64,000 nt of DNA. Origin: Bacteroidales bacterium (GTDB taxonomy: Bacteria > Bacteroidota > Bacteroidia > Bacteroidales > P3). The notes beneath the pieces are model-generated. The model saw only the letters and a program-made list of their open reading frames with translations, was not told where the DNA came from and made no database searches. Shown piece by piece: positions 13,579 to 45,512 of the stretch. The translations under genes were made by a program, and so were the position numbers. Numbering within the stretch: the stretch's first letter is position 1; each line of letters starts with the position of its first letter. The stretch is taken from positions 19,421 to 83,420 of the forward strand of contig JAFUWF010000030.1 in assembly GCA_017483575.1 (NCBI GenBank). The letters run 5' to 3'.

Positions 13579-13614
13579 TTGATAAATTGAAAATTGAAAA
13601 TTGAGAATTGAGAA
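13579..13614. repeat. Heptad tandem spacer (ATTGAAA-type)
   Basis: The spacer between two minus-strand genes consists of degenerate 7-mers ATTGAAA, ATTGAAA, ATTGAGA, ATTGAGA, ATT. It extends from the sdaA start almost to the stop of the upstream gene, so it lies inside the presumed transcript or at its boundary. A related word occurs at 47325-47353. Confidence 0.65.
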
Positions 13615-15129
13615 TTATTCCTCTATCAGTATTATCTCGGAGATGCAGAGGTCGTTGTATTTGGCGCCGGGGGTGACGGCGGTGACGAGGAGGGTGATTT
13701 CCTTGACTTTCTGGCGGTAGTTAACCACTGGCCACGGGAAGACGTAGTTCATCCGGCGTTCCTCGACGGTCACCTTGATGGCGGCGTCGGTCAGCGCCTG
13801 CCAGGTGAAGGCCGTGGGTGTGCCGCCCATCAGCTCGGGGGTGACCCGCCTGTCTCGCGCCACGGAATAGGTCTCGCCCCAGTAGTACGGCTCGCGTGTG
13901 GTGAAATTGTAATACAGCGTGTCGATGCGGCTGTTGTTGAGCCAGGTCTGCCGGTCCTTGCAGTAGCCGTTGTAGAGCAGCAAGCCGTTGAGCATCACCG
14001 AGTCGTGGAAGCGGATGGTGACATAGAGTGAGTCGCCGCGTCCAGGGCGCAGCACCGTGGCCGTGGCGAGGTCCATGTCGCTAAGGTTGGCGGCGGGATA
14101 CTTCGGGTCGACGCCGGAGAGGGTAATCGTGTAGCGGTCGGGACTGATGCGGCGGCTGAGCAGGTCGGGCAGGTCCTCGTGGAGGGTGCCCCGCGTGCAG
14201 TAGCTCACCTCCAGCGGCTCGGCGGCGGCGAGGTCGAAGCGGCGCGACTCGAAAAGGTAGCCCCTACCCTGCTTGCGCATGTCCAGTCCGCTGACGCTGA
14301 CGGGCTGCCAGTAATGGACGATGTCCGAAGTGTCGAGCTCCACGTGGAAACGGTCGGCATGGCCGTCGCCCCAATAGGCGGCAGGCGAGAAGTCGTAGCG
14401 GAACTCACCGCAAGTGTAGCGACCAGCAGCGAACTCCGCCTGTACTTCGTAAAGGCCACTGCTCGTGTTGTTCTCGATACGGTAACGCACCGAGAGTTCC
14501 ACCACCTGGCGCGGCGCGATGTCGAGGCGCACATAGTACCAGCGGCGGCAGACGGCGGAGTGGTGGTAGAGGATGCTGTCGCCATACTTGGCCACCAGCT
14601 GGCGGGTGCGCTCGGCGGAGTAGGTGTCGGTGCTGTCCCATTTGAGCAATGGGTCCTCGTAGTCGAGGCCCTCCACCGCATCCAGCAGGAACTCGTCGAC
14701 ATAGGGGCGTTCGGGCGTCAGCACCGTGTCGGCCGAGCACTGCCACGCGAGGCTCCGACCGTCGAGGCTGAACATCACGTCGCGCACATAGCTGTCGCGC
14801 CAGCCACGCTCCACAATGCTCTCGCTCACAATGTCGAGACTCTCCCAGCGCTGCGCCCCCTGGCCGAGGTAGTCGACGGGGAAGCCGTAGGGCAAGGCCT
14901 TGAAGGCGCGGTCGGAGCGGTTGAAGAGCAGATAGCGCACCTCCACCTCGGTGTAGGTGGCGTGGAGCGTGAAGCGGCACTGCTCGTCGAGCAGTTGCAC
15001 CTCGGGCACATGCACCGCCATGGGCGTACGCGCCAACGTCAGGGCCGACCGCTCGGACACAGGGTCGCCATTGGCCCAGAGCAGCGTGTTGAAAGCCAGA
15101 AGAGATAAGATTATCAGTATTTTCCTCAT
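13615..15129 (-). CDS. Secreted protein with NADase-type glycan-binding (discoidin-like) C-terminal domain
   Basis: The start is set at the ATG at 15129 (MRKILIILSLLAFNTLLWANG), a signal peptide; the longer frame to 15297 has no such feature and overlaps the divergent promoter. The N-terminal two thirds (about 30-340) is a beta-rich region similar in arrangement to the next gene (VEVRYLLFNRSDRAFKALPY; compare VQYEFWNPEKKARRLLMGF). Residues about 365-504 resemble the NADase-type glycan-binding domain, a discoidin-like fold: AANLSDMDLATATV, TIRFHDSVMLNGLLLYNGY, ending LCISEIILIEE. No catalytic NADase part is present. A carbohydrate-binding periplasmic or surface role is inferred. It is divergent from the related gene at 15221. 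Confidence 0.75.
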   Translation of the reverse strand: MRKILIILSLLAFNTLLWANGDPVSERSALTLARTPMAVHVPEVQLLDEQCRFTLHATYTEVEVRYLLFNRSDRAFKALPYGFPVDYLGQGAQRWESLDIVSESIVERGWRDSYVRDVMFSLDGRSLAWQCSADTVLTPERPYVDEFLLDAVEGLDYEDPLLKWDSTDTYSAERTRQLVAKYGDSILYHHSAVCRRWYYVRLDIAPRQVVELSVRYRIENNTSSGLYEVQAEFAAGRYTCGEFRYDFSPAAYWGDGHADRFHVELDTSDIVHYWQPVSVSGLDMRKQGRGYLFESRRFDLAAAEPLEVSYCTRGTLHEDLPDLLSRRISPDRYTITLSGVDPKYPAANLSDMDLATATVLRPGRGDSLYVTIRFHDSVMLNGLLLYNGYCKDRQTWLNNSRIDTLYYNFTTREPYYWGETYSVARDRRVTPELMGGTPTAFTWQALTDAAIKVTVEERRMNYVFPWPVVNYRQKVKEITLLVTAVTPGAKYNDLCISEIILIEE

Positions 15130-15153
15130 GTTTCCTGCATTAATTATCAGATG

Positions 15154-15161: not shown

Positions 15162-15191
15162 CTAAAAAAATTTCATAATGGATTTTTTTTG

Positions 15192-15199
15192 TATCTTTG
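15192..15199 (+). promoter_or_regulatory. -7 promoter box for the YARHG gene
   Basis: TATCTTTG, followed by CAG, matches the Bacteroidota TAnnTTTG box and lies 22 bp before the start at 15221. It is back-to-back with the box of the divergent gene, about 30 bp away, so both genes share a compact divergent promoter. Confidence 0.6.
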
Positions 15200-15220
15200 C
15201 AGCGGAAAAAACCTATTGTA

Positions 15221-16384
15221 ATGAAGAGACTGAAAATATATGTGATGGCGCTGCTCCTCGCGATGACGGCGCTGCCCGCCGCGGCCAACGACGGCACCTA
15301 CTACACCAAGGGCAACCAGCTGGTGCCCCTCCAGGAGACCTCCATCGGCATCCGCCGCGAGGTGCTGACCATCAGCCTGATGGACAACGGCTACGCCCGT
15401 GTGGACGTGCAGTACGAGTTCTGGAACCCCGAGAAGAAGGCGCGCCGCCTGCTGATGGGCTTCGAGGCCGACCCGCCCTACAACTTCGACTACAAGTTCT
15501 ATCCCGACGGCCGCCATCCTGCCATCAGCAGTTTCACGGTGGAGATGAACGGCCGTACGCTGGCCTACCGCAATGCAGCCTGCGTGGCCGACACCAACTC
15601 CCTGGTGCCCATCGACACCACTCGGCCATACTTTGTCTTCGACGACAACCGGATTTACGAGGACGATGGCAAGGGCACCATGAACGATGAGGTTTACAAT
15701 ACAGGCATCTCGTTCGCCTATGTCTACTACTTCGAGGCCGAGTTCCAGCCGGGGCTCAACCGCGTGCACCACAGCTATGTCTACCGCATGTCCACCAACG
15801 TGGGCAGCCCGTTCATCGTGGACTACAAACTGACGCCCGCCGCGCGCTGGGCCGGGGGCAAGATCGGCGACTTCACGCTCACCATCCGTGCCGACAGTAC
15901 GGCCAAGCATTTCTATGTGTTCGACAGCGTGTTTGGAGGCACTGACTTCACCGTCAGCGAGGGCATGGGCAAGCTGCGCCGTCCGCAGCACTACGGCAAC
16001 CCCACCGAGGTGAGCCTCCGCAACGGCGCCATCACGCTCCACAAGACCGACTTCTCGCCCCGGAGCGAACTGTATATCACGGCCGTGGGCGTCGAAGGCA
16101 TCTATGTCGGAGAGAAGTGCATCACCGGTGGCACCTACGACCGCTCCAATCGCATCGACTGGGGCCCCTACGAGGGCATGCAGTGGGTGCCCGCCGACGC
16201 GGCCTTCCGCCAGCGCGTGATGCGCAACCTGCCCTACGCCCACCGCGGCCATGTCTTCAAGGACAAGAAGCTGAAAGCCTATTTCGAAAGCCTTTGGTGG
16301 TACATGCCCGACCCCGACTACAAGGACGACACCAGCGACTTCACCGAGGTGGACTGGATGTTTGTAAACGATAAAGAAGAATGA
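15221..16384 (+). CDS. Secreted YARHG-domain protein
   Basis: The start at 15221 (MKRLKIYVMALLLAMTALPA) gives a signal peptide cut near AANDG; the ATG at 15197 would sit inside the promoter. The protein is 387 residues. The central part is beta-rich, without catalytic motifs. The C-terminus (about 340-380) fits the YARHG domain: AHRGHVFKDKKLKAYFESLW followed by WYMPDPDYK. YARHG domains occur in extracellular bacterial proteins of unclear role. Its N-terminal region resembles that of the divergent neighbour, suggesting duplicated genes. The stop overlaps the next start (ATGA at 16381-16384), indicating translational coupling. Confidence 0.8.
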   Translation: MKRLKIYVMALLLAMTALPAAANDGTYYTKGNQLVPLQETSIGIRREVLTISLMDNGYARVDVQYEFWNPEKKARRLLMGFEADPPYNFDYKFYPDGRHPAISSFTVEMNGRTLAYRNAACVADTNSLVPIDTTRPYFVFDDNRIYEDDGKGTMNDEVYNTGISFAYVYYFEAEFQPGLNRVHHSYVYRMSTNVGSPFIVDYKLTPAARWAGGKIGDFTLTIRADSTAKHFYVFDSVFGGTDFTVSEGMGKLRRPQHYGNPTEVSLRNGAITLHKTDFSPRSELYITAVGVEGIYVGEKCITGGTYDRSNRIDWGPYEGMQWVPADAAFRQRVMRNLPYAHRGHVFKDKKLKAYFESLWWYMPDPDYKDDTSDFTEVDWMFVNDKEE

Positions 16385-17568
16385 CTATGGAAGAACCTGT
16401 TTTAAACGTCCATAACAAAGACGAACACCTGCCGATGCATGGCACATACAATCATGTCAAGCACGCGGTACTATGTGTTGTTGTGCTATTGTCCAGTTAT
16501 TATGCGATGGGGCAGGGACTCACCGAGGCAAAAAGCCGTGAACGAATCGAGCAATTGACAAATCTCATCGACCGCTATGGTAGGTTCACGTTTTATGCTG
16601 ACTGCAATCTGGCCGTATTTTCCGACAGCGTGGACTGGCAAGGGATTGTGGCCCTTGACGGCACCGTGCTGCTGCCGGCACGGTATAGGGTCTACAGGCA
16701 GACAATAGACAGCCGCGAGTCGCCCTATTTCCTCATCATGAGCTGGGAGAAAGTGGGACTGATTGACAAGGAGATGCGCTGCGTGCTACCGATGGAGTAT
16801 GACAATGTCTTCGCATGCATGGCAAGCTGCTATGCTCCCTATATCCACAGGTGGTTCCGAACAGGACGCGCCTGCCTGCGGAAAGAGGGAAAGTATGGCA
16901 TCGTGGACACGGCAGGAAGGATCATCGCGCCCTTCTCGTCCGGCGAGCCATTCGAGTTCGACGACGATGACGACCTATTTCCCCTCGACACCATTGATGC
17001 AGAGGAACCCACGCCGCCGATAAGCGCCCCTTACGAACACAGCTACCCCCTTTCGGAAGACCTCTTCGAGTTCGCTACCCGCAATCCCGGCGACCGAAGC
17101 GACTATATCACCGGCTACGTAGACCGCTACGGCAACACCACCGCCACGCCCGAACAACTCGCCACCATGGAGAAATGGACAAAGGGTGTGGTGGAGTACG
17201 ATGTGGAGCCCATCATGGTGACGGATGTCGTGCCTTACGTAGATGCGCGTAACTCGTATGCCACGGTGTACGCCTGCCTGAGCGATGCCGACACCATGGG
17301 CTATCTTCTCGTTCCGAGAGAAGATACCTCGTCGATGCGTATTTTCAGCAAGAGAGTGTCGGTGGACCCTTGGAACAATGCTGTTGGCATCTGCCCGAAG
17401 CGATACGACGCTGGCATGGACGACGTCAGGCAAACCGAAGCCCTGCTGCCCGAGGTGATGAAGGAGAGTGTGTTCCCCCAGCTTGGCCGGTGGCGCCATT
17501 ATATCGGAAACCCCGACAACTACACGAAATACACACGGACATACTCAACCTCGACACCCGCAAGGTAA
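16381..17568 (+). CDS. WG-repeat-like secreted protein with a duplicated AlaX leader
   Basis: The frame opens with ATGA overlap to the previous gene. The first 18 codons (MTMEEPVLNVHNKDEHLP) closely match the N-terminus of the AlaX-like gene 1.2 kb downstream (MEQEPVLNTHNKEEYPPMH). A signal-peptide-like segment only begins at the internal ATG at 16435 (MHGTYNHVKHAVLCVVVLLS, ending YYAMGQ), so the true export start may be there. The mature part has WG-like repeats: WQGIVALDGTVLLPARY, KVGLIDKEMRCVLPMEYD and KYGIVDTAGRIIAPF. An acidic stretch (EFDDDDDLF) follows. No enzyme motif is seen. Function unknown. Confidence 0.75.
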   Translation: MTMEEPVLNVHNKDEHLPMHGTYNHVKHAVLCVVVLLSSYYAMGQGLTEAKSRERIEQLTNLIDRYGRFTFYADCNLAVFSDSVDWQGIVALDGTVLLPARYRVYRQTIDSRESPYFLIMSWEKVGLIDKEMRCVLPMEYDNVFACMASCYAPYIHRWFRTGRACLRKEGKYGIVDTAGRIIAPFSSGEPFEFDDDDDLFPLDTIDAEEPTPPISAPYEHSYPLSEDLFEFATRNPGDRSDYITGYVDRYGNTTATPEQLATMEKWTKGVVEYDVEPIMVTDVVPYVDARNSYATVYACLSDADTMGYLLVPREDTSSMRIFSKRVSVDPWNNAVGICPKRYDAGMDDVRQTEALLPEVMKESVFPQLGRWRHYIGNPDNYTKYTRTYSTSTPAR

Positions 17569-17615
17569 TCAAAGCCATTGCCAGCTCATGTCAGTCATAT
17601 TGAAATTATAAAGAA

Positions 17616-18086
17616 ATGGAACAAGAACCTGTATTGAATACCCACAACAAAGAGGAGTACCCGCCGATGCATACGGCGGAGCACATACTGAACCAGACGA
17701 TGGTGAGGATGTTCGGATGCCCGCGGTCGCGGAATGCGCACATCGAGCGAAAGAAGAGCAAGTGCGACTACCAGCTGGCGGCCTGCCCTACGGAGGCACA
17801 GCTCCAGGAACTGGAGCACCGCGTCAACGAGGTCATCGCGCAGCACCTGTCCGTCAGCTATGAGTTCGTAAAACGCAACGAGGTGCCGCCGGAGGTGGAC
17901 CTCGGCAAACTGCCCGACGATGCCAGCGAGACGCTGCGCCTCGTCCGTATCGGCGACTACGACCTCTGCGCCTGCGTCGGCACACATGTCCGCAACACTT
18001 CTGAAATTGGCACCTTCAAAATCATCTCCCACGACTACAACGCCGACACCGGCTCCTGGCGCATGCGCTTCAAACTGTTAGAATAA
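17616..18086 (+). CDS. Alanyl-tRNA editing protein, AlaX-like
   Basis: This 156-residue stand-alone editing domain is related to the second additional domain of alanyl- and threonyl-tRNA synthetases and would hydrolyse mischarged tRNA. Zinc/catalytic motifs are visible: HTAEH (HxxxH) near residue 19 and CVGTH (CxxxH) near 127. The sequence PRSRNAHIERKKSKCDY is typical of the Bacteroidota members. The N-terminal MEQEPVLNTHNKEEYPP appears genuine since the motif directly follows. A terminator lies 7 bp after the stop. Confidence 0.85.
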   Translation: MEQEPVLNTHNKEEYPPMHTAEHILNQTMVRMFGCPRSRNAHIERKKSKCDYQLAACPTEAQLQELEHRVNEVIAQHLSVSYEFVKRNEVPPEVDLGKLPDDASETLRLVRIGDYDLCACVGTHVRNTSEIGTFKIISHDYNADTGSWRMRFKLLE

Positions 18087-18092
18087 AAAGAA

Positions 18093-18126
18093 AACAGGCG
18101 GCTCCGATGAGTCGCCTGTTTTTTTG
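18093..18126 (+). terminator. Rho-independent terminator after the AlaX-like gene
   Basis: AAACAGGCGGCT and AGTCGCCTGTTT form a strong stem around CCGATG, followed by a T-run (TTTTTTTG). A-rich flanks on the left mean it can also serve the convergent rplY transcript on the minus strand. Confidence 0.85.
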
Positions 18127-18143
18127 TCAATAAGTATCCGAAC

Positions 18144-18737
18144 TTATTCGGCAGCGGCCTCGCCTTCGCCCTCGCCATCACCGGCGGTGGCACTGGCACG
18201 GGTGCTGAGCACGTTGACAACCTCGCTGGTCTTCGGGTTGAGAATGCAGAAGTTCTCAGCGGGAATGTCCTGAACGCGGACACGCTGGTTGATGTCGAGA
18301 TTGGTGATGTCGATAAGGACCTCGCTGGGCATATTGGCGGGCAGGGCCTTAACATTGAGGCGTTTCTGCTTGTAAGCCAGCTTGCCACCCTTCATGACGC
18401 CCTTGCTGGTGCCGGTGGTATGCACGGGAATGGACATCACGACGGGTTTGTCGTCGGTCAGCTCATAGAAGTCAGCATGATAGACAATCTCGGTCACGGG
18501 GTGGAACTCAATGTCCTTCAGCATGGCCATGTGGTCGATACCGCCCAGATTGATTTTCACATAGCAGGGCTCGGGGTTGAACAGCACACGCTGGAAGGCG
18601 GTCTGATCGACGGCGAACAGATACTGCTCACCTTTACCGTACATAACGCAAGGCACTTTGGCGTCGCGACGCAGAGCCTTAGCATCCTTTTTCCCTACGT
18701 TCTCACGAAGAGAACCGCTCATTGATACTACTCTCAT
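18144..18737 (-). CDS. rplY: 50S ribosomal protein L25 / Ctc
   Basis: L25 binds 5S rRNA. The N-terminal L25 domain starts SGSLRENVGKKDAKALRRDA with KVPCVMYGKGEQ. The C-terminal TL5/Ctc extension includes PVHTTGTSKGVMKGGKLAYK and ends in an acidic alanine-rich tail (GDGEGEGEAAAE). Length 197 is usual for the Bacteroidota form. The ATG six codons in (MSGSL) is an alternative start. It lies downstream of prs on the same strand, separated by a repeat-filled spacer; this pairing of prs and rplY is common in bacteria. Confidence 0.95.
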   Translation of the reverse strand: MRVVSMSGSLRENVGKKDAKALRRDAKVPCVMYGKGEQYLFAVDQTAFQRVLFNPEPCYVKINLGGIDHMAMLKDIEFHPVTEIVYHADFYELTDDKPVVMSIPVHTTGTSKGVMKGGKLAYKQKRLNVKALPANMPSEVLIDITNLDINQRVRVQDIPAENFCILNPKTSEVVNVLSTRASATAGDGEGEGEAAAE

Positions 18738-18740
18738 TGT

Positions 18741-18845
18741 TTTAATTTGTTAGTTTGTTAATTTGTAAATTTGTTAATCATATCTGTAATGTATTCATGT
18801 GCTAATCTTCAACTTACAAATTAACACATTCACACATTCACACAT
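18741..18845. repeat. Spacer of 8-bp words between prs and rplY
   Basis: TTTGTTA-type words (TTTGTTAG, TTTGTTAA, TTTGTAAA, TTTGTTAA) fill the left part. CACATTCA words repeat on the right (ACACATTCACACATTCACAC). An ACAAATTAAC stretch complements the left words, so the spacer can partly pair with itself. Confidence 0.55.
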
Positions 18846-18850
18846 TCATC

Positions 18851-19837
18851 TTATTCGTTCATTCTGTGGATGACGCCCTTGCGGTGGAGGGTGGTCTCGT
18901 AGAGGTTGTCAAGGCTCTCGTAGTTTACCACGCGGCGGATGGCCTCGGCCAGCAGCCAGTCGCAACTCAGCACACGGATCTTGCTACTCTCACGTTTCAG
19001 CGGAATGGTGTCGGTCACCACCAGTTCCTCAAGCTCGGAGGCTTCCACCTTCTCGATGGCCTGGCCACTGAGCACGGGGTGGGTAATCATGGCACGCACA
19101 CTCTTGGCGCCGCTGGCCTTGATAATACCGGCAGCCTTACAGATAGTGGAGCCCGTGTCGATGATATCGTCCAGCAGGATAACATGCTTGTCCTTCACAT
19201 CGCCGATGAGACGCATTTCGCCAATCTCGTTGGGCTTGTTGCGATGCTTGTAGCAGATGACAAAACTGTTGTTCAGCGTCTTGGCATAGGTACCGGCGCG
19301 CTTGCTGCCACCCATGTCGGGGCTGGCGAACATCACGTCCTCGATATCGAACTTCTCGCGGATATAGGGCATGAAAAGACTCGAACCATAGAGGTGGTCG
19401 ACGGGAATGTTGAAGAAGCCCTGAATCTGGTCGGCATGGAGGTCCATGGTGATCACGCGGTCCACACCGGCGGTCATCAGCATGTCGGCGATGAGCTTCG
19501 AAGCAATGGGCACATGGGGTTTGTCTTTGCGGTCCTGACGCGCGAAACCATAATAAGGAATCACGGCGACAATCTTCTGGGCCGAGGCGCGCTTGGCGGC
19601 ATCGATCATCATCAGCAGCTCGAAGAGGTTGTCCGTCGGGGGGATGGTGCTCTGGATGATGAACACGATTCCGCCGCGTATGGTCTCCTCATAGGAAGGC
19701 TGAAACTCGCCGTCGGCATACTGGAAAACCGTAGAATTGCCCAGCGGAATGCCATAGATTTCCGCCACGCGGCGTGCCAGGTTTTCGGTGGCGCGACCCG
19801 CAAAAATAAACACCTTGTCAGAACGCATATCGCTCAT
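18851..19837 (-). CDS. prs: Ribose-phosphate pyrophosphokinase
   Basis: This makes PRPP from ribose 5-phosphate and ATP for nucleotide, histidine and tryptophan synthesis. Motifs are complete: FQYADGEFQPSYEETIRG, the flexible ATP loop YYGFARQDRKDKPHVPIA, DLHADQIQGFF, and the PRPP-binding loop VILLDDIIDTGSTI. Length 328 is typical. Both N-terminal ATGs (MSDMRSDKV) are possible. A very good promoter lies 66 bp upstream, divergent to that of tRNA-Leu. Confidence 0.97.
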   Translation of the reverse strand: MSDMRSDKVFIFAGRATENLARRVAEIYGIPLGNSTVFQYADGEFQPSYEETIRGGIVFIIQSTIPPTDNLFELLMMIDAAKRASAQKIVAVIPYYGFARQDRKDKPHVPIASKLIADMLMTAGVDRVITMDLHADQIQGFFNIPVDHLYGSSLFMPYIREKFDIEDVMFASPDMGGSKRAGTYAKTLNNSFVICYKHRNKPNEIGEMRLIGDVKDKHVILLDDIIDTGSTICKAAGIIKASGAKSVRAMITHPVLSGQAIEKVEASELEELVVTDTIPLKRESSKIRVLSCDWLLAEAIRRVVNYESLDNLYETTLHRKGVIHRMNE

Positions 19838-19902
19838 TACTATGTTGATTTTTAGTTGTATCGTTTATTTTTTCCTTCAATCTTACTGACTGAAAACGAG
19901 TG

Positions 19903-19933
19903 CAAAAATACACAAAAATATTGGTTCGGCAAA
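19903..19933 (-). promoter_or_regulatory. prs promoter (TTTG-N19-TAnnTTTG)
   Basis: On the minus strand the -33 TTTG is at 19930-19933 and the -7 TATTTTTG at 19903-19910, with exactly 19 bp between them. A second TATTTTTG at 19913-19920 may give an alternative start. Confidence 0.75.
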
Positions 19934-19940
19934 AAAAAGT

Positions 19941-19971
19941 TTTGCCACGTCAAAAAAAGTGTGTACTTTTG
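19941..19971 (+). promoter_or_regulatory. tRNA-Leu promoter
   Basis: The -33 TTTG is at 19941-19944 and the -7 TACTTTTG at 19964-19971, with a 19 bp spacer. The -33 boxes of this and the divergent prs promoter lie in one short inverted repeat GGCAAAA...TTTTGCC (19928-19946). Confidence 0.75.
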
Positions 19972-19989
19972 CACCCGATTTCGAGAGAG

Positions 19990-20069
19990 GTTACTGGTTA
20001 TAGGTTATGGGTTATTGACGGCTGACGCGCCCCACTTCCATAACCAATAAACAATAACCAATAACCTTT
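19990..20069. repeat. Palindromic heptad spacer in the tRNA-Leu leader
   Basis: The left arm has words GGTTATA, GGTTATG, GGTTATT. The right arm has the complementary words ATAACCA, ATAAACA, ATAACCA, ATAACC. They are separated by about 22 bases, and the arms can pair. It lies between the promoter and the tRNA start, so it is transcribed with the precursor and could affect 5' processing. The same word family occurs between mod and res. Confidence 0.7.
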
Positions 20070-20076
20070 AAGAAAG

Positions 20077-20162
20077 GCCCTGGTGGTGGAATGGTAGACA
20101 CGGTAGACTCAAAATCTGCTGCCGGCAACGGCGTGAGGGTTCAAGTCCCTCCCGGGGTACCA
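20077..20162 (+). tRNA. tRNA-Leu (anticodon CAA)
   Basis: The 86-nt gene has a 7-bp acceptor stem (GCCCTGG with CCGGGGT, ending in a G-U pair). The D-arm is GGTGGAATGGTAGACAC, the anticodon loop is CTCAAAA with anticodon CAA, and there is a long variable arm (TGCCGGCAACGGCG) of class II type. The T-arm is AGGGTTCAAGTCCCT. The 3' ACCA is encoded. The long variable arm and CAA identify tRNA-Leu. Confidence 0.95.
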
Positions 20163-25300: not shown

Positions 25301-25452
25301 GTCCTCTGGGAGGGGTTTGGTAGGTACCTTGTTCGACTGTTCTCATATACTTCTCATATCGTTCTCATATACTTCTCATATACTTCTCATATACAGTATA
25401 TGAATACTATATGAGAACGATATGAGAACGATATGAATACTATATGAGAATG
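25301..25452. repeat. Palindromic 11-mer repeat element, copy 1
   Basis: The left arm has tandem words of the type ATACTTCTCAT. The right arm has the complement (TATATGAGAAC, CGATATGAGAAC). The outer end GTCCTCTGGGAGGGGT...TTGTTCGACTGTTCT (25301-25343) recurs in inverted orientation at 35385-35428. The element is placed between divergent promoters of the lipoprotein operon and korA. Confidence 0.75.
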
Positions 25453-27461: not shown

Positions 27462-27500
27462 TTCATAGGATTTCCTAGGGTTTCCTAGGGTTTCCTAGAA
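27462..27500. repeat. TTTCCTAGGG tandem spacer between korA and korB
   Basis: Tandem 10-bp words (ATTTCCTAGG, GTTTCCTAGG, GTTTCCTAGA) fill the 64-bp korA-korB spacer. CCTAGG is itself palindromic. It is within the operon transcript. Confidence 0.65.
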
Positions 27501-28559: not shown

Positions 28560-28695
28560 ATAGTGGCCAGTAGCTAGTGGCCAGTAGTCAGTAGCCAGCA
28601 GTCAGTGATTGCTGGCTACTTCTTTTTTACTGACCACTGACCACTAACCACTAACCACTAACCACTAACCACTGACCACTAACCTCCAACCACTA
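28560..28695. repeat. Long degenerate heptad array downstream of korB
   Basis: The left part consists of words such as AGTGGCC, AGTAGTC, AGTAGCC and AGCAGTC. The right part has at least seven CTAACCA/CTGACCA words (28630-28690). Left and right words are roughly complementary. The array fills most of the gap between korB and the next promoter and contains a terminator hairpin. Confidence 0.75.
28590..28628 (+). terminator. korB terminator made from repeat words
   Basis: AGTAGCCAGCA (28590-28600) pairs perfectly with TGCTGGCTACT (28610-28620) over a 9-base loop, followed by TCTTTTTT. The stem arms are themselves copies of the local heptad words. Confidence 0.8.
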
Positions 28696-28703
28696 AAAAA
28701 AAT

Positions 28704-33988: not shown

Positions 33989-34709
33989 ACTCGACGACGT
34001 ACGCGCCGAATACCTCCGGCGCCTCTCCCCCTCCGATGCCGCCGACACCTCGCTCCTCGCCCTCATCGAGCAGCACATCACGGCACGCATGGGCAAAATG
34101 CTGCGCCCACAACTCCTCCTCCTCGCCGCCGACACCCTCGGCCAGGCCGACACCCCCCGCACCACGCTCCTCGCCGTCGCCGTCGAAATGCTCCACAACG
34201 CCTCCCTCCTCCACGACGACGTCATCGACCACGACGACACCCGTCGCGGACAACCCTCCGTCAACGCCCGCTTCGGCAACACCGCCGCCGTCCTCGCCGG
34301 CGACTACCTCCTCTCCCAGGTAATGGCCATCCTCCACCAAGTCGGCGACCGCGACGCCTCCTCCCTCGTCAACCGCACCGTCACCTCCATGGTCCAGGCC
34401 GAACTCCTCCAACTCGAAAGTCATGAAGCCATGAAGTCGCAAAGTCATGAAGTCTCCACGACTCCACGGCTCCACGACTCCACGACCTACCTCCGCATCA
34501 TCGACGGCAAAACCGCCTCCCTCTTCGCCTGCGCCTGCGCCCTCGGCAACCCCCTCTACTACGACTTCGGCCTCCACTACGGACGCCTCTTCCAGCTCCG
34601 CGACGACATCGCCGACCACGAGGACAACCCCTTCACCGCCACCCTCATCGAACAGGAACAGCAAGCCCTCCTTGCAATAAAAGACCACCTTCCGGTACAA
34701 AACATATAA
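33972..34709 (+). CDS. Polyprenyl diphosphate synthase, shortened and carrying an in-frame repeat insert
   Basis: A trans-prenyltransferase making the polyprenyl chain for quinones. The first Asp-rich motif is HDDVIDHDDTRRG and the second is FQLRDDIADH; YLRIIDGKTASLF precedes it. Two oddities are visible. The loop between VQAELLQL and TYLRIIDGKT contains about 22 residues encoded by tandem repeats (34417-34486). Only about 35 residues follow the second motif, where long-chain synthases usually have about 75, so the protein (245 residues) is short. It may still be active because both motifs and the core helices are present, but this is uncertain. Confidence 0.85.
   Translation: MNLKTRLDDVRAEYLRRLSPSDAADTSLLALIEQHITARMGKMLRPQLLLLAADTLGQADTPRTTLLAVAVEMLHNASLLHDDVIDHDDTRRGQPSVNARFGNTAAVLAGDYLLSQVMAILHQVGDRDASSLVNRTVTSMVQAELLQLESHEAMKSQSHEVSTTPRLHDSTTYLRIIDGKTASLFACACALGNPLYYDFGLHYGRLFQLRDDIADHEDNPFTATLIEQEQQALLAIKDHLPVQNI
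34417..34486. repeat. In-frame palindromic octad repeat inside polyprenyl synthase gene
   Basis: The left arm has words GTCATGAA, GCCATGAA, GTCGCAAA, GTCATGAA. The right arm is four units TCCACGAC, TCCACGGC, TCCACGAC, TCCACGAC (34455-34486). The right arm reversed and complemented (GTCGTGGA units, one GCCGTGGA) matches the left words except for A/G transitions. The insert is in frame and gives a low-complexity peptide. Confidence 0.8.
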
Positions 34710-35295: not shown

Positions 35296-35428
35296 ATAGT
35301 ATTCATATACTTCCCATATAGTATTCATATACCATATATAAATACTATATGGGAAGTATATGTATACTATATGTATACTATATAAGAACAGTCGAACAAA
35401 ACACCTCTCAAAACCCTCTTTGGGACAA
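35296..35428. repeat. Palindromic repeat element, copy 2 (inverted)
   Basis: Tandem words TAGTATTCATATACTTCCCA are followed by their complement (ATACTATATGGGAAGTATAT...). The right outer end AGAACAGTCGAAC (35385-35397), followed by CAAAACACCTCTC...CTTTGGGAC, is the reverse complement-like match of the left end of the copy at 25301. It lies in the 292-bp gap upstream of the DUF6029 gene; the rest of that gap is a C-rich stretch (35226-35295) and the promoter. Confidence 0.75.
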
Positions 35429-38089: not shown

Positions 38090-41000
38090 ATGAACCGAAG
38101 GATTCTGGGACTGGCGTTGCCGAACATCATCACCAACATCACCGTGCCGTTGCTGGGCATGGTGGACACGGCGATTATGGGCCACCTGTCGAAGGAGGGC
38201 CTGGGGGCCATAGCCATCGGGGCATCGCTTTTCAACCTCATCTATTGGAACTTCGGATTCCTGCGCATGGGCACCAGCGGCATCACGGCGCAGGCCTACG
38301 GCGCCAGGCGTTGGGACGAGGCCGTGAAGACCCTCATCCGTGCCTGCACCATCGCCCTGTGCATAGCGCTGACGCTCATAGCGCTGCAATGGCCCATCGG
38401 GCTGCTGGTGCCGGTCTTCTTCGAGGGCAGCGACAAGGTGTTGTCCATGGCGCTGACCTACTTCCAGGTGCGCATCTGGGCCGCTCCCGCCACCCTGGGG
38501 CTCTATGCCATCAAGGGCTGGTTCATCGGCATGCAGGACTCCAAGACCCCCATGTGGATAGCCATCGCGCTGAACATCGTCAACATCATCTTCTCCCTGC
38601 TCTTCGTCATGGTGTTCCACTGGGACATCGCCGGCGTGGCCCTGGGCACCGTCGTGGCCCAGTACTCCGGCCTGGCGATGGGCATCGTCTTCCTGCGGAA
38701 GAAGCTGAGAGAGGAAAGTGGAAAGTGGAAAGTGGAGTGTCCTCAGCTTTCCACCTTCCACTTTCCACTTTCCACTCTTTCCAGCGTGCTGCGCTGGGAA
38801 GACATGCGCCGCTTCTTCAAGGTCAACGGCGACATCTTCCTGCGGACGGTGTGCCTGTCCGCTGTGTTCACCTTCATCACCGCCGCCGGCAGCCACATCA
38901 GCGACGAGGTGCTGGCGGTGAACAACCTGCTGATGCAGTTCTTCACCCTCTTCAGCTACATCATGGACGGCTTCGCCTACGCCGGCGAGAGCCTGGTGGG
39001 CCGCTACATCGGTGCCCGCGAGCCGAAGAACCTGCGCTCAGCGGTGCGCCTGCTCATCCTCTGGGGGCTGGTGCTGACGGTGGTCTTCACCGGAGCCTAC
39101 GCCCTGGGCGGCGAGTGGTTCCTCCGCATCTTCACCGACCAGCAGGCCGTCATCGACGCCGCCGGCGACTACCTCTTCTGGGTGCTCATCGTTCCCGTAT
39201 GCGGCTTCGCAGCCTTCCTCTTCGACGGCATCTTCATCGGCGCCACCGCCAGCCGCACCATGCGCAACGCCATGTTCGTGGCCACAGCCGCCTTCTTCGC
39301 CGTGTACTACGGGCTGAAGGCCGCCTACGCCCCCCTCGACACCCACACCTGGAACAACATCCTCTGGACTGCCTTCATGGTCTTCCTCACCCTGCGCGGC
39401 CTGCTGCAATGGTTGAGGCTCAAGAAAGATGTCTACGGACTGATCATACTCGCCCTGCTGACGTTCACCTTCGTGCCAACCCACGCCCAGACGGGCTGGA
39501 CCGATGCCTTTGCCCGGCCCAAGGTGGCCGTGGTGCTCTCCGGCGGCGGCGCCAAGGGCGTGGCCCACATCAGCGCCCTGCGCGCCATCGAGGATGCCGG
39601 CCTGCCCATCGACATCATCACAGGCACCTCCATGGGCTCCCTTATCGGCGGCCTCTACGCCATCGGCTGGAGCACCGACGAGCTGGACTCGCTGGTACGC
39701 TCGCAGGACTGGACCTTCCTCCTCACCGACCGCGTCAACCCCGAGTCCGTGGACATCGACACCCGCCGCATACAGAACACCTACGCCCTCTGGCACGCCT
39801 TCACCCCCGGCAATGCCAACCGCAATTCCGGCGCCGGATTCATCCGCGGCACCAACCTGGACCACCTCTTCGACCGTCTGCTCGAAGGCTATCTGGATTC
39901 CATCGACTTCAACACCCTGCCCATCCCCTTCGCCTGCGTGGCCACGGACGTCATCACCAATACCGAGGTCGACTTCCACTCCGGCTACCTCAAGCAGGCC
40001 ATGCGCGCCTCCATGTCCATCCCCGGCGTCTTCTCGCCCGTGCGCATGGGCGACCTCCTGCTGGTGGACGGCGGCCTGCGCAACAACTACCCCGCCGACA
40101 TCGCACGCCAGATGGGGGCCGACATCATCATCGGCGTCACCGTCCAGGGCGACACCCTCGCGGCCGACGACGTCACCGGGCCCATCGACCTCCTGATGCA
40201 GGTCATCGACATCAACTGCAAGAACAAGTACAACGACAACATAGCGATGAGCGACATCGTGATGCACGTCGACGTCAGCGGCTACTCCGCCGCCTCGTTC
40301 ACCGCCGACGCCATCGACACCCTCCTGCGCCGCGGCGCCGAGGAGGCCGCCCGCCATCGCGACGCGCTCGTCGCCCTGCGCAACGACATAGCCACCAAAC
40401 GCCCGCGTTGGAACACCCAGCGCACCGTCAGCCCCACCTCCGTCGACCAAGCGGAAAACAAACACTCCTACAAACTCACCGCCCCTCCCACCCCCCTGCT
40501 CTACAACCCCATCGTCGGCGTGGCCTTCCGCTTCGACAACGAGGAGACCGGCGCCCTGCAGATCGGGGCCCGCTTCCCGTTCAAATGGGGCATCCCGATG
40601 GAAGTCAACGGCCACCTGCGCCTCGGCAAGCGCATCCAGTTCCATGCCGAGCAGTTCCTCTACCCCCGCGGCGTCACCTCGCCCTCCCTCTCCTACACCT
40701 ACTTCCGCAACGACATCGACATCTACTCCGACGGCATCCGCAGCTACAACTCCAAGTACAACCAGCACCGCCTGAGCCTGATGCCCATCAACTCGCGTTT
40801 CCGCAACTACAAACTCCGCGCCGGTATCATCTTCGACTACTACGACTTCTTCGACCCCATCCTCTCCGCCGGCGGATCGACCATTGTGGTCGACGACTCG
40901 CGCTTCTTCTCCTACCATTTTGAATCCACCCTTTACACCGAGAACGACTACTACACCCCCACGCGCGGCATCTTCTTCATCGCCTCCTACACCTACCGCA

Positions 41001-41482
41001 CCGACAACCTGCTGACCTACATGGACAATGCCGGCATCAGCGAGGTTCGCACCATCTGGCGCAACTCCTTTGCCCTCTCGTCCGCCTTCACCCTCTCCCC
41101 CTGCCTCTTCGGAAGACTCGTCATCGCGCAGGACGACGTCCCCTACCCTTTCGCCAACGCCCTCGGATCCTACCAGAACATTGTCGACCAGCAACTTGCC
41201 TTCCCCGGCGTGCACAGCCTCACCTTCGTCGACCCCCTCTTCGTCGCCGCGCAACTGCGTCTGCAGTTCAACTTCCACAAGAACCAGTACCTCATCTTCC
41301 GCGCCGCCGCGGCTCGAAAGTCCCGCGATTTTGAGGAGCTGCTCCGCATCGAGCCCAACATCTACGGCTTCGCCATCGGCTACTGCTACAATTCCTTCCT
41401 CGGCCCCATCTCCGCCGACCTCGGCTACTCCACCCTCGCCCCGGGCCTCAACTTCTACCTCAACATCGGACATTATTTTTAA
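38090..41482 (+). CDS. Fusion: DinF-like MATE transporter + patatin-like phospholipase with outer-membrane barrel
   Basis: One uninterrupted frame of 1130 codons. Residues 1-440 are a full-length DinF-type MATE exporter (RRILGLALPNIITNITVPLL, MVDTAIMGHLSKEGLG, about 12 membrane segments). Residues 447-467 (DVYGLIILALLTFTFVPTHAQ minus its last residue count) read like a signal peptide. From about 478 follows a patatin domain: VVLSGGGAKGVAH, GTSMGSLIGG (nucleophile Ser) and DGGLRNNYPAD (catalytic Asp). The C-terminal about 350 residues form a BamA-like barrel ending NFYLNIGHYF. The two halves normally work in different membranes. A TTG at 39413 could start the second protein separately; no in-frame ATG fits. 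The MATE part also carries an in-frame repeat insert at 38714-38780. Confidence 0.85.
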   Translation: MNRRILGLALPNIITNITVPLLGMVDTAIMGHLSKEGLGAIAIGASLFNLIYWNFGFLRMGTSGITAQAYGARRWDEAVKTLIRACTIALCIALTLIALQWPIGLLVPVFFEGSDKVLSMALTYFQVRIWAAPATLGLYAIKGWFIGMQDSKTPMWIAIALNIVNIIFSLLFVMVFHWDIAGVALGTVVAQYSGLAMGIVFLRKKLREESGKWKVECPQLSTFHFPLSTLSSVLRWEDMRRFFKVNGDIFLRTVCLSAVFTFITAAGSHISDEVLAVNNLLMQFFTLFSYIMDGFAYAGESLVGRYIGAREPKNLRSAVRLLILWGLVLTVVFTGAYALGGEWFLRIFTDQQAVIDAAGDYLFWVLIVPVCGFAAFLFDGIFIGATASRTMRNAMFVATAAFFAVYYGLKAAYAPLDTHTWNNILWTAFMVFLTLRGLLQWLRLKKDVYGLIILALLTFTFVPTHAQTGWTDAFARPKVAVVLSGGGAKGVAHISALRAIEDAGLPIDIITGTSMGSLIGGLYAIGWSTDELDSLVRSQDWTFLLTDRVNPESVDIDTRRIQNTYALWHAFTPGNANRNSGAGFIRGTNLDHLFDRLLEGYLDSIDFNTLPIPFACVATDVITNTEVDFHSGYLKQAMRASMSIPGVFSPVRMGDLLLVDGGLRNNYPADIARQMGADIIIGVTVQGDTLAADDVTGPIDLLMQVIDINCKNKYNDNIAMSDIVMHVDVSGYSAASFTADAIDTLLRRGAEEAARHRDALVALRNDIATKRPRWNTQRTVSPTSVDQAENKHSYKLTAPPTPLLYNPIVGVAFRFDNEETGALQIGARFPFKWGIPMEVNGHLRLGKRIQFHAEQFLYPRGVTSPSLSYTYFRNDIDIYSDGIRSYNSKYNQHRLSLMPINSRFRNYKLRAGIIFDYYDFFDPILSAGGSTIVVDDSRFFSYHFESTLYTENDYYTPTRGIFFIASYTYRTDNLLTYMDNAGISEVRTIWRNSFALSSAFTLSPCLFGRLVIAQDDVPYPFANALGSYQNIVDQQLAFPGVHSLTFVDPLFVAAQLRLQFNFHKNQYLIFRAAAARKSRDFEELLRIEPNIYGFAIGYCYNSFLGPISADLGYSTLAPGLNFYLNIGHYF
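38714..38780. repeat. In-frame palindromic heptad repeat inside the MATE coding region
   Basis: The left arm is GAAAGTG three times plus GAG. The right arm is CTTTCCAC, CTTCCAC, TTTCCAC, TTTCCAC, its complement. It encodes ESGKWKVECPQLSTFHFPLS in the cytoplasmic linker between the two MATE halves (after FLRKKLRE, before LRWEDMRRFF). Confidence 0.85.
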
Positions 41483-41509
41483 CATCGTATCATACAAAGC
41501 ACCAACATA

Positions 41510-42142
41510 ATGAAAGCAAACGACCTCTATAACCTATTTGCACAGCAAGTGGTTGAATATCACAAGACCGACAACGTCGACGCCCCCCAGCACAACCCCT
41601 ACCCCGACGGCACCTACGAAGCCCTCCTCTGGGAGAAGTCCTGGGTGGACACCGTGCAATGGCACCTCGAGGACCTTGTTCGTCCGGACGACGTGGACCC
41701 CGTCTACGCCCTCCAACTCAAGCGCCGCATCGACCGTTCCAACCAGCACCGCACCGACCTCGTGGAACGCATCGACGACCACTACTACAGCCACTTCAAA
41801 GACATCGCCCCCCTCCCCGACGCCCGCCTCAACACCGAGACTCCCGCCTGGGCCATCGACCGCCTCTCCATCCTCGCCCTCAAGGTCTACCACTTCCAGA
41901 TCGAGGCCAACCGCGGCGACGCCGACCACCGCGCCCGCTGCCAGGCCAAGCTCGACACCCTCCTCACCCAGCGCACCGACCTCACCCTGGCCATCGACCA
42001 GCTCCTCGACGACCTCGCCGCCGGACGCCGCCAGATGAAACTCTATCGCCAGATGAAGATGTACAACGACCCCAGCCTGAACCCCATGCTGTATGGGGAA
42101 CGCGACCATAAGGGAGCGAACGCGGACAACATCAAGAAATGA
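41510..42142 (+). CDS. DUF4254-family protein
   Basis: A 210-residue soluble, helical, acidic protein: NLFAQQVVEYHKTDNVDAPQ, then LLWEKSWVDTVQWHLEDLVR, IDRSNQHRTDLVERID and AWAIDRLSILALKVYH. This fits the Bacteroidota DUF4254 family, which is typically encoded directly before a GT9 glycosyltransferase, as here with a 4-bp overlap (42139-42142). Biochemical role unknown; a link to LPS or glycan synthesis is inferred from context. Confidence 0.9.
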   Translation: MKANDLYNLFAQQVVEYHKTDNVDAPQHNPYPDGTYEALLWEKSWVDTVQWHLEDLVRPDDVDPVYALQLKRRIDRSNQHRTDLVERIDDHYYSHFKDIAPLPDARLNTETPAWAIDRLSILALKVYHFQIEANRGDADHRARCQAKLDTLLTQRTDLTLAIDQLLDDLAAGRRQMKLYRQMKMYNDPSLNPMLYGERDHKGANADNIKK

Positions 42143-43140
42143 AGCACGTCCTCGTCATCCGCCTCTCCGCCCTCGGCGACGTGGCCATCATGGTGCCGCT
42201 GGTGGAACGCTATGCCTCCGCCAACCCCAACCTGCACTTCACCGTCGCCGGACCTCCCCTGCTGCAACCGCTCTTCGAAGGCATGCCCAACGTGGAATAC
42301 CTGGGACTCAAGAAGAAACAGAGCTTCATCAAGATATACCATACCCTCCACGCCGTAGGCGCCGACACCGTCGTCGACCTCCACAAGGTGAACCGCGTAG
42401 GCTTCGCCCTCACGCTCTTGCGCCTGCGCCACCTCCTCGACTTCCACTTCCGCATCCACGCCCTCCGCAAGGGCAAGCTCTCGCGCTGGCTCTTCCTCCA
42501 CCACCTCAGAAAGACGCCCCGCCGCTCGCAGTACCTCCGCTACGACGATGTCTTCCGCCGCGCCGGACTGAAAAAAATGGAAAGCGGAAAGTGCAAAGTG
42601 GAAAGCAGGCTGCCGCGTCAGGGAAACTTCCACTTCTCAATCGGCATCGCCCCCTTCGCGCAGCACCAGGGCAAAATCTGGCCGCACGAATACACGCAGC
42701 AACTGATCAAGCTCCTCGCCGACCGCGGCTACCAGGTCCTCCTCTTCGGCAGCAAAGAGGAAGCCCCCCTCCTCGAATCCTGGACGCACCTCGAACCCTC
42801 CCTGGTCACCTCCGTGGCCGGCAAGCAGACCTTCCGCGAGGAACTGGACATCATCAAGTCGCTCACCCTCATGGTCTCCATGGACAGCGCGAACATGCAC
42901 TTCGCCTCGGCCCTCGGAGTCCCGGTGGTCAGTATCTGGGGCGCCACGCATCCCGACTTCGGTTTCTACCCCTACAACCAGCAACGCTCCAATGCCCTCT
43001 GCGCCAACCTTCCCTGCCAACCCTGCTCGGCCTTCGGCAACCGTCCCTGCCGCTTCGGCGACTACCGCTGCCTCCATGCCGTCACCCCCCAGGGCGTCCT
43101 CGAAAAAATCATCGCCCTTACAGGCCAATCTTTGCAATAA
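42139..43140 (+). CDS. Glycosyltransferase family 9 (heptosyltransferase-like)
   Basis: A GT-B fold glycosyltransferase. The N-terminal domain starts MKHVLVIRLSALGDVAIMVP with the family-typical LSALGD. The C-terminal domain has IGIAPFAQHQGKIWP, FGSKEE, and the donor-site region MVSMDSANMHFASALGVPVV and IWGATHPDFGFYP. Likely adds a sugar to the LPS core on the inner membrane face. 333 residues. The inter-domain linker (around 42571-42633) carries an in-frame repeat insert related to that in the MATE gene. Start overlaps the DUF4254 stop. Confidence 0.93.
   Translation: MKHVLVIRLSALGDVAIMVPLVERYASANPNLHFTVAGPPLLQPLFEGMPNVEYLGLKKKQSFIKIYHTLHAVGADTVVDLHKVNRVGFALTLLRLRHLLDFHFRIHALRKGKLSRWLFLHHLRKTPRRSQYLRYDDVFRRAGLKKMESGKCKVESRLPRQGNFHFSIGIAPFAQHQGKIWPHEYTQQLIKLLADRGYQVLLFGSKEEAPLLESWTHLEPSLVTSVAGKQTFREELDIIKSLTLMVSMDSANMHFASALGVPVVSIWGATHPDFGFYPYNQQRSNALCANLPCQPCSAFGNRPCRFGDYRCLHAVTPQGVLEKIIALTGQSLQ
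42571..42638. repeat. In-frame repeat insert in the GT9 gene
   Basis: Degenerate words ATGGAAAGCGGAAAGTGCAA, then GTGGAAAGC, are followed after a short loop by AACTTCCACTTCTC, partly complementary. The encoded peptide MESGKCKVES...GNFHFS matches the MATE insert ESGKWKVE...TFHFPLS. It lies in the linker between the two GT-B domains. Confidence 0.75.
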
Positions 43141-43152
43141 TACCCTTACCAT

Positions 43153-43197
43153 CTCCCCACCAACTCCCTACCAACTCCCTACCAACTCCCACCACGG
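43153..43197. repeat. 11-bp tandem spacer (CTACCAACTCC)
   Basis: CACCAACTCC, CTACCAACTCC, CTACCAACTCC, CACC follow the GT9 stop and fill the gap to the convergent DUF4105 gene. No hairpin or T-run is seen. Confidence 0.65.
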
Positions 43198-44389: not shown

Positions 44390-44428
44390 TTTTCATTTCT
44401 CATTTTTCATTTATCATTTATCATTTAT
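44373..44428. repeat. Heptad tandem tract upstream of and into the DUF4105 gene
   Basis: Read on the minus strand: GATAAAT three times, GAAAAAT, GAGAAAT, GAAAAAT, GGAAAAT, about seven heptads. They fill the 40 bp between mscS and the DUF4105 start and continue into its first codons. A complementary GAAAAATGAAAAAC stretch lies about 60 bp into the gene (44298-44320), within the signal-peptide region. Confidence 0.75.
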
Positions 44429-44429
44429 C

Positions 44430-45512
44430 TCACTCTCCCTCGCCGATGGCCTCGTTGGCAATGTGGGGACGGAGCTTGTCGATGTCGGGCTCCTGGCGGG
44501 GTTCCATGTGGATGGGAGCGTTCTCTTTGGCGTTGTGGACCGTAACCTGCGGGAAGGGGATGTCGACGCCGGCCTCGTTGAAGGCGATGTAGATGTCCTC
44601 GCGGATGTGTTTCCACACCACCCAGTAGTCCTCCACAGTGACCCAGAGCCACAGGGTGATGTCCACGGAGCTACTGTTCAGGTCGCTGACGGCGATGGTG
44701 GGGGGCTTGGGGTCCCACTTGATGAGTTTTTCGCTGCGCACGACGTCCCAAAGGACCTGTTTGGCCTTGGCGAGGTCGGTGCCGTAGGCCACAGAGGCCA
44801 CCACATCGAGGCGGATGATGGGTTCCTTGGTGTGGTTGATGAGGCTCTTGGTGGCGAGTTCGCTGTTGGGGATGATGACGGTGCGGCCGTTGAAGGGGCG
44901 CATGATGGTGTGGAAGATACGGATTTCCTTGATGTAGCCCTTGTAGGAGCCGCACTCGATGTAGTCGTCTACCTTGAAGGGTTTCATGAGGAGGAGGATG
45001 ACGCCGCCGGCGAAGTTCTGCAGCGTGCCCTGCATGGCCATGCCTACGGCGAGGCCCATGGCGCCGAGGAGGGCGATGAAAGAGGTGGCTTTGATGCCGA
45101 TGACGTCCATGGCCATGATGACAATCATGGCTTTCAGCAACACGTCGACCAGGGAGCCGAGGAAGGTCTTGAGCGACCCTTCGGCGCCGCGCTTGTCGAG
45201 GGCTTTGACGATGAGTTTCTTGAGCCACTTGGCCAGCTTCATGCCAGCCCAGAGGATGAGGATGGCCACGAGGAGTTTGGGGACGAACTCGACGGTGAGT
45301 TTGGTGAGGGCGGAGAGGCCGTCGCGGATAATGGTGTTTTCGCCGGTGACAATGTCCTTGACGTCGGAGATGCTGAGGTTGGCAAGGCTGTCCTTCACCG
45401 TGGTAATGGTGCTGTCAACGGCCTTGATGGGTTCCGGCACAACAGCATCAGTAGGATTCGACTGCGCCGCAGCGGCAATCATGGCAGGTGTGTTGTCGTC
45501 TAAAAGTATCAT
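44430..45512 (-). CDS. Mechanosensitive ion channel, MscS family
   Basis: An inner-membrane channel opening under membrane tension. An N-terminal amphipathic leader of about 75 residues is followed by three membrane segments (FVPKLLVAILILWAGM; VLLKAMIVIMAMDVIGI; the pore helix GAMGLAVGMAMQGTLQNFAG with typical Gly/Ala spacing). The beta domain follows (PFKVDDYIECGSYKGYI, IIPNSELATKSLINHT). The C-terminal alpha/beta domain ends in VDIPFPQVTVH. 360 residues. Upstream it is divergent from the AlkZ-related gene. Confidence 0.95.
   Translation of the reverse strand: MILLDDNTPAMIAAAAQSNPTDAVVPEPIKAVDSTITTVKDSLANLSISDVKDIVTGENTIIRDGLSALTKLTVEFVPKLLVAILILWAGMKLAKWLKKLIVKALDKRGAEGSLKTFLGSLVDVLLKAMIVIMAMDVIGIKATSFIALLGAMGLAVGMAMQGTLQNFAGGVILLLMKPFKVDDYIECGSYKGYIKEIRIFHTIMRPFNGRTVIIPNSELATKSLINHTKEPIIRLDVVASVAYGTDLAKAKQVLWDVVRSEKLIKWDPKPPTIAVSDLNSSSVDITLWLWVTVEDYWVVWKHIREDIYIAFNEAGVDIPFPQVTVHNAKENAPIHMEPRQEPDIDKLRPHIANEAIGEGE

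Follow-up and report, generated by a model that had tools for sequence, protein, structure and literature searches.

The window considered here is a stretch of 64,000 nucleotides from a Bacteroidales bacterium (assembly GCA_017483575.1, contig JAFUWF010000030.1, positions 19,421 to 83,420 of the forward strand), and the features in question are two short tandem arrays of the heptamer GGAAAGT that lie in frame at linkers of two unrelated proteins. The first host gene, at 38090..41482 on the plus strand, was recognized from its open reading frame and a domain match as a MATE transporter (PF01554) that shares its frame with patatin and Omp85 domains, 1130 amino acids in all; the second, at 42139..43140 on the same strand and recognized in the same way, encodes a glycosyltransferase family 9 protein (GT9, PF01075) of 333 amino acids. 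The MATE array occupies 75 bp (38706-38780, plus strand). As delimited by a repeat finder and arm pairing, it comprises a G-rich arm at 38706..38741, with three copies of GGAAAGT encoding ESGKWKVE, and a C-rich arm at 38742..38780, with four copies of ACTTTCC encoding LSTFHFPLST. The best arm pairs run for 29 nt (93% complementary) and 20 nt (100%), and the array is a palindrome in the open frame of a conserved gene.

The GT9 array is such a palindrome only in part. Four degenerate heptamers (GGAAAGC, GGAAAGT, GCAAAGT, GGAAAGC) at 42579..42606 on the plus strand encode ESGKCKVES. They are followed at 42608..42621 by GGCTGCCGCGTCAG, which from its sequence and from motif counts fits the GCTGNCGC motif known from the loops of other paired arrays, whereas the loop of the MATE array does not. 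A short pyrimidine stretch, TTCCACTTCTC, at 42628..42638 is a weak, possible remnant of a C-rich arm, but the repeat finder gives no inverted pair for the GT9 array. MATE thus holds an inverted pair, and GT9 one arm and a GC-rich core.

The initial annotation had read these loci as one palindromic element, a word followed by its complement, that entered two unrelated genes in the same phase, a reading that is partly supported. The related peptides are real: they were quoted correctly, both frames are open through the array, and the same kind of DNA does stand in frame at linkers of both proteins and in further genes. The sequence of word and complement is clear in MATE and weak in GT9. Matches to GGAAAGTGGAAAGTG at up to three mismatches number 12 in the window against 1.58 expected, a count reached in 0 of 100 shuffles, and 11 of the 12 fall in the two arrays. 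The GGAAAGT 17-mer at up to one mismatch has 27 matches, overlapping ones included, in the whole assembly and 0 for its reversed control. The bare 8-mer GGAAAGTG occurs 8 times in the window, a count that 2 of 100 shuffles also reach.

Most full-length relatives have listed MATE frames of about 446-510 amino acids and one has 610; the single frame of MATE and patatin-Omp85 at 38090-41482 may be a real fusion or reflect a lost stop.

Period-7 arrays in the genome

A sample of 464 kb (the window together with a further 400 kb of its genome, out of 1.96 Mb) was scanned by counting self-matching stretches at each lag; gene positions, in this genome as in its relatives, come from a simple hexamer gene finder and not from an annotation. 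Lag 7 yielded 76 arrays, lags 4, 5, 6 and 13 none, and lags 8, 9, 10 and 11 gave 4, 12, 9 and 30, respectively; multiples of 7 apart, no lag between 2 and 20 exceeded 30. The arrays form 67 clusters, which extrapolates to about 280 in the assembly. A single GGAAAGT family is ruled out by the scan, which showed many heptamers, TTTTCAA, TTCTCAA, ACTCTCC, ACCTCCG, AATAACC and ACTTTCC among them.

Among 65 clusters placed relative to genes, 37 lie within genes, of which 29 are internal, 5 are close to the N-terminus and 3 stand at the C-terminal end; another 20 are intergenic and 8 fall at edges. About 82% of the sample belongs to called genes; the genic share of the clusters is lower than this, yet far from exclusion. 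The N-terminal clusters belong to putative signal peptides, such as MKKIALIIFIFQFSIFNLLHAQ, judged by eye. Besides MATE and GT9, solved relatives allowed AnmK, IleRS, CoaBC and MurD to be identified as array-bearing proteins, the last with two arrays.

Anatomy of paired arrays and variation of the unit

Inverted pairs were found in 24 of the 67 clusters, about a third, and in 22 of 122 clusters from 25 relatives; no second arm was detected in the remaining 43 clusters of this genome. The G-rich arm comes first in 24/24 pairs here and in 21/22 of the relatives' pairs, where one pair (L313) is listed twice and the sole exception (L393) shares an arm with another pair. The loops hold recurring motifs, chosen from these same loops: GCTGNCGC is present in 10/24 and GCTGACGC in 6/24, where random windows give 0.50 and 0.15, respectively. 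In the relatives, GCTGNCGC occurs in 5/22 loops (0.38 in random windows), one pair being counted twice.

The unit itself varies. Across 170 clusters from 26 sampled genomes, 58 of 1172 heptamer classes are in use, and 54 of the 58 are joined by single-base steps; 30 random sets averaged 32 and never exceeded 44. No sequence is common to all copies. With so many units, and with most clusters here lacking a detected second arm, a single fixed palindromic element is untenable. Arrays have a unit in common in 6.5% of comparisons within genomes against 3.3% of those between genomes, and 0 of 300 permutations reached so high a value; sharing of this kind would require that arrays be copied from one locus to another. 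The uniformity of units within an array would be explained by local slippage.

Reading frame and orientation

Every frame of (GGAAAGT)n gives the peptide cycle GKWKVES, and every frame of its complement TFHFPLS, because 7 is no multiple of 3. The equal phase in which the two genes carry the array, put forward as a sign of common entry, is therefore automatic and without evidential weight, and the argument from phase falls.

Orientation, in contrast to phase, bears the mark of selection. Of 46 coding arrays in this genome, 22 have a heptamer with a stop codon on exactly one strand, and the open strand is the sense strand in 19 and the closed strand in 3 (p 0.0009). The 25 relatives show 31 against 3 (p 8e-7), for a total of 50 against 6. 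Heptamers open on both strands are used both ways, 14 G-rich to 10 C-rich here (n=24) and 11 to 5 in the relatives, which also hold 2 coding arrays with stops on both strands. In one closed-sense array (C5:137941-137976), inspection by eye finds TTCAAAA on the sense strand amid TTGAAAA units, at the place of a would-be in-frame TGA, and the GT9 gene of G019 has TTTAAAA in a similar place. The stop-avoiding orientation is that of tolerated passengers under selection for an open frame. More broadly, arrays in genes are probably such passengers, which often rewrite a linker, and not domains selected for their peptide.

Probable turnover at orthologous linkers

Each of the two proteins was aligned across 30 genes: that of the window and, from those of 59 searched genomes that gave a match, the best 29. 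A lag-7 array stands at the linker in 9/30 MATE and 9/30 GT9 genes, and any other lag between 4 and 13 reaches 2 at most; elsewhere in the same genes, 0.2% and 0.4% of scanning windows pass the lag-7 test. The units, read by eye, differ between orthologues. At the MATE linker they are GGAAAGT here, AACTCAA in G023, TTTTCAA in G001, an 8-base unit in G008 and 9-base units in G022. At the GT9 linker, G080 shares GGAAAGT with the window, G019 has TTGAGAA together with the complement, and G036 has AGGTGAA. The expectation that close orthologues would lack the inserts is thus borne out to the extent that some lack the array; there is no clean absence, as other genes carry a period-7 array of other heptamers at the same place, with no difference in length. 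By eye, the MATE linkers of G022 (L090) and G081 (L094) have a 9-base repeat of ATTCGGAGT type in place of the heptamer.

No difference in linker length separates the 9 genes with a lag-7 array from the 21 others (MATE p 0.48, GT9 p 0.24), the latter being not purely array-free since they partly hold degenerate or 8- and 9-base repeats. The GT9 linker, at 23 amino acids, falls within the 17-25 of genus linkers without a lag-7 array, which does not support calling it an insert. Alignment to solved structures is ungapped for the second MurD array; the first is 3 residues shorter, that of CoaBC 6 shorter and that of GT9 about 3 shorter. The alignments suggest that linkers are rewritten more than lengthened; replacement without gain appears to be common, with clear exceptions in other genes.

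Distribution across relatives

The relatives' stretches taken for the lag scan were mostly centred on MATE, that of G007 having been chosen for its array-like match there; the other sampled stretches were chosen regardless of arrays, except C26:140001-160000 of the window's genome, which had known matches. Twenty genus relatives gave 51 stretches at lag 7, or 50 after removal of one N run, and 20 genomes of the order outside this family gave 4 in 267 kb, one of them N. The density of lag-7 arrays is 8-33 per 100 kb in the five best-sampled species of the genus; in four congeners poor in arrays, 155 kb contained not a single one. The GGAAAGT 17-mer is present in 15/61 genomes, all 15 within the genus.

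Among 41 genomes of the genus, matches to a degenerate pyrimidine-arm pattern ranged from 0 to 622 per genome; they overlap within arrays, and the reversed pattern is nearly identical and so no valid control, for which reason only the spread between genomes is used. By this pattern G027 and G021 are rich, yet lag-7 arrays were missing from the stretches sampled in them (15-20 kb each), as they were from those of G009 and G024. Three copies of TTYTCAA occur in 35/295 genomes and 30/184 genera of the order. Further heptamers are found in 18 stretches around these sites as well, and in some the unit drifts along the array. Reversed controls match strongly in G036 (56+41), G002 and G022 of the genus and in G202, G159 and G158 of the order, because the letters AGGTGAA and AACTYTT are heptamer units themselves.

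Origin of the arrays

We favor the view that these arrays are probably a large family with a 7-base period, kept by slippage and template switching, copied between loci, and often rewriting dispensable sequence. The architecture of the paired forms may be summarized as a G-rich arm, a short loop sometimes with GCTGNCGC, and a complementary C-rich arm. Replication slippage would hold the heptamers within an array alike, and template switching across the hairpin would copy one arm from the other, such that complementarity persists while the sequence drifts; template switching in hairpins is described as a known source of perfected palindromes in PMC4060949. Ectopic copying among arrays could then spread some heptamers genome-wide and give rise to species preferences. 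Finally, selection would purge arrays from constrained DNA, leaving them in intergenic spacers, domain linkers, loops and signal peptides, and in the stop-free orientation. The array anatomy and the stop-codon filter belonging to this last step are matters of direct observation. If the view is correct, a replication-born repeat, not a classical transposon, supplies and replaces protein segments in uncultured gut bacteria, and hundreds of arrays per genome, with differing heptamers at orthologous sites, would constitute a natural experiment on which parts of proteins can change. It would also bear on why bacteria prefer a repeat length of 7 and on how drifting hairpin arms stay complementary.

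Several observations weigh against this view. That arm polarity is fixed and that a loop motif recurs goes beyond what slippage alone would produce and suggests a defined element, although GCTGACGC in the relatives' loops (3/22 against 0.06 in random windows) is hardly independent, two of the three being the pair listed twice, already seen before the test. Period 7 is preferred and not exclusive, as periods 8, 9, 10 and 11 also occur. The heptamer is not specific to the group: the exact 21-mer of three GGAAAGT copies is found in contigs of many phyla (at least 116 stretches, 80 of them among the matches listed), and a viral scan found it in 15 stretches. Rewriting is put in question by the impurity of the comparison linkers and by gains in length against solved structures, namely 10 residues in IleRS, 3 in AnmK and about 19 in MATE, the last relative to a distant plant MATE protein. 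No single event of gain, loss or rewriting was seen in the sample, which is without a near-identical strain pair.

Nor was any machinery found, and transposase, reverse transcriptase, SbcD and MutS do not explain array abundance. Across the 41 genomes of the genus, abundance is unrelated to copy number of Y1 transposase, the only transposase considered (rho 0.18, p 0.27), to reverse transcriptase (rho -0.20, p 0.20) or to SbcD (rho -0.10, p 0.55). Y1 matches occur in 29/41 genomes; the 12 without include the array-rich G061, G006, G008 and G019, which are only 72-88% complete. RVT_1 is found in 15/41 and SbcD exceeds the cut-off in 18/41. Loss of MutS1, present in 38/41, was rejected as a general cause upon inspection alone: it is missing over the cut-off only in G021, G026 and G061, of which G061 has the most pattern matches and G026 few.

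A defined element of some kind is what a tentative alternative supposes, one that we regard as possible though rather unlikely. A mobile palindromic element, of the repetitive extragenic palindromic (REP), miniature inverted-repeat transposable element (MITE) or Rickettsia type, would insert heptamer-armed hairpins, the solo arrays being decayed copies and the various heptamers subfamilies. The arm polarity and GCTGNCGC loops fit such an element in this genome and in the relatives alike, as do the range of 0 to 622 pattern matches between species of one genus and the gain of ten residues in IleRS. Yet there is no sequence common to all copies, and linkers are not longer in GT9, MurD or CoaBC. 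Signs of insertion are likewise missing: the mean shared flank word is 3.29 against 3.31 with shuffled partners (24 pairs, with boundaries uncertain by a few bases), which gives no target-site duplication, and GTAG or CGTC end tags occur in 4/24 pairs against 4.8 expected. The lack of relation to Y1 copy number, and the 12 genomes devoid of a Y1 match (the four rich ones being incomplete), add to these difficulties.

It is unlikely, though worth stating, that a trans-acting and largely sequence-blind process working in 7-nt steps writes paired arrays over tolerant DNA, coding linkers and signal peptides included, at constant length. Were that so, the process would be a main source of new loop and linker protein sequence in the genus, with a changing heptamer set peculiar to each species.

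Another proposal is templated addition, in which both 3' ends of a break would be extended with heptamers by an enzyme that is RNA-templated or resembles a terminal transferase. Such addition would place a G-rich arm to the left of its complement, accounting for the G-first polarity, and would also explain species-preferred units. We consider it highly improbable, given that many heptamers coexist in one genome, which one template would not yield, and that RVT_1 has no match in this genome (78% complete) or in 26/41 genus genomes altogether, several of them array-rich. Also highly improbable is the proposition that the peptides are selected as functional linkers, the heptamers following from convergent amino-acid needs. 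Arrays do occupy linkers, loops and putative signal-peptide N-termini, but 20 of the 65 clusters are intergenic, heptamers without a stop on either strand occur in either orientation, yielding two unrelated peptides, and unrelated peptides stand at the same place in orthologues. Chance, compositional low complexity or assembly artefact is most improbable, for although 2 of 100 shuffles reach the bare 8-mer count and G027 and G021 are rich by pattern yet have no array in the single 20-kb stretch sampled, the lag-7 excess over neighboring lags recurs in many separate assemblies and is absent from the array-poor congeners.

Relation to known repeats

Heptanucleotide repeats were the commonest long simple repeats in most genomes of a 2007 survey, and 7 nt was proposed as a polymerase-interacting length (recounted in PMC4679880). 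The GGGNATC heptamers of Xanthomonas and Nostoc are dispersed tandem repeats, patchy among relatives and preferentially placed between aligned genes (PMC4692102). They resemble the present arrays in being dispersed 7-nt units at many loci, in excess of other unit lengths, but involve one or few heptamers with a strong non-coding bias, whereas here the heptamers of one genome are many, inverted pairs carry a motif in their loops, and genes hold 37 of the 65 clusters. TAACTGA direct repeats are known from Beggiatoaceae, cyanobacteria and five Bacteroidetes, often just 5' of start codons, and stops limit their placing in one orientation (PMC4679880). Heptamer arrays whose orientation is limited by stops are the shared feature; the difference lies in the single heptamer, whose one-base variants are rarely repeated, as against the connected network of variants here. 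TAACTGA is not among the 15 commonest units of the 170 clusters.

The in-frame palindromes had been likened to the Rickettsia palindromic elements (RPE), which lie in frame in conserved proteins as well as between genes, measure 105-146 bp and have terminal inverted repeats (PMC2229807). The likeness is in the placing of palindromes; the MATE array is 75 bp, the arms here are of heptamers that change in sequence, and linker length is often kept. Rickettsia is moreover not the only parallel. REPs tagged with GTAG or CGTC are short hairpins of which some are intragenic in several species, CGTC repeats occur in five phyla including Bacteroidetes, and differing REPs occupy approximately the same recB site in two Xanthomonas species (PMC3733652). 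The present arrays share with them the short, partly intragenic hairpin, but have no end tag and no conserved stem sequence. The BrickBuilt minisatellite MITE of Porphyromonas gingivalis, a related bacterium, likewise has a tandem repeat within an inverted-repeat element, but its unit is of 23 bases and it is always intergenic (PMC4596501). Heptamer repeats and in-frame palindromic elements are therefore each known; their combination, paired heptamer arrays that rewrite coding linkers, was found in no paper of the open-licence literature searched.

Other arrays and repeats

The window also holds other heptamer arrays. A paired array of GGTTATT type at 19986..20072 (plus strand), with GGCTGACGC in its loop, ends 4 bases ahead of a tRNA gene at 20077-20159, and a second paired array, of GGTTAGT / GGTCAGT type, lies at 28575..28699 (plus strand). 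The latter is intergenic, as are two more. At 13583..13616 (plus strand) a TTGAAAA / TTGAGAA array has no detected second arm, and at 44400..44430 an array of TAAATGA type, with its G-rich strand on the minus strand, is paired with a weak arm from 44295. Rfam, run on the window at gathering thresholds, found nothing but a tRNA. A role as terminators was rejected: of 20 intergenic clusters in this genome 19 lie between co-directional genes, 1 between divergent and 0 between convergent ones, and of 57 typed intergenic runs in 25 relatives 47 are co-directional, 5 convergent and 5 divergent, co-directional spacers making up about 63% of intergenic bases.

Elsewhere in the genome sample, a frame of at least 2519 amino acids (L293, G000 C26:140001-160000, 12442-19998), is still open where the stretch ends and contains five distinct heptamer clusters.

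Repeats of other periods are present as well. An 11-base palindromic family, TATATAGTATACATATAG, occurs at 25340-25440 and 35354-35385, with 3 lag-11 stretches in the window and 17 elsewhere in the sample; 20 of the 30 lag-11 arrays belong to one palindrome family, TATATAGTATACATA. The TATATAGTATACATATAG repeat looks like a family separate from the heptamer arrays. Another 11-mer array, ACTCCCTACCA, lies at 43148-43193, right 3' of the GT9 stop codon, and arrays of TGGGAGTTGGT type are found elsewhere in the sample. Arrays with 8- and 10-base units (TTTGTTAA, TTTCCTAGGG, GACTCCAC) stand at 18746-18850, 27462-27500 and 34454-34487 of the window.

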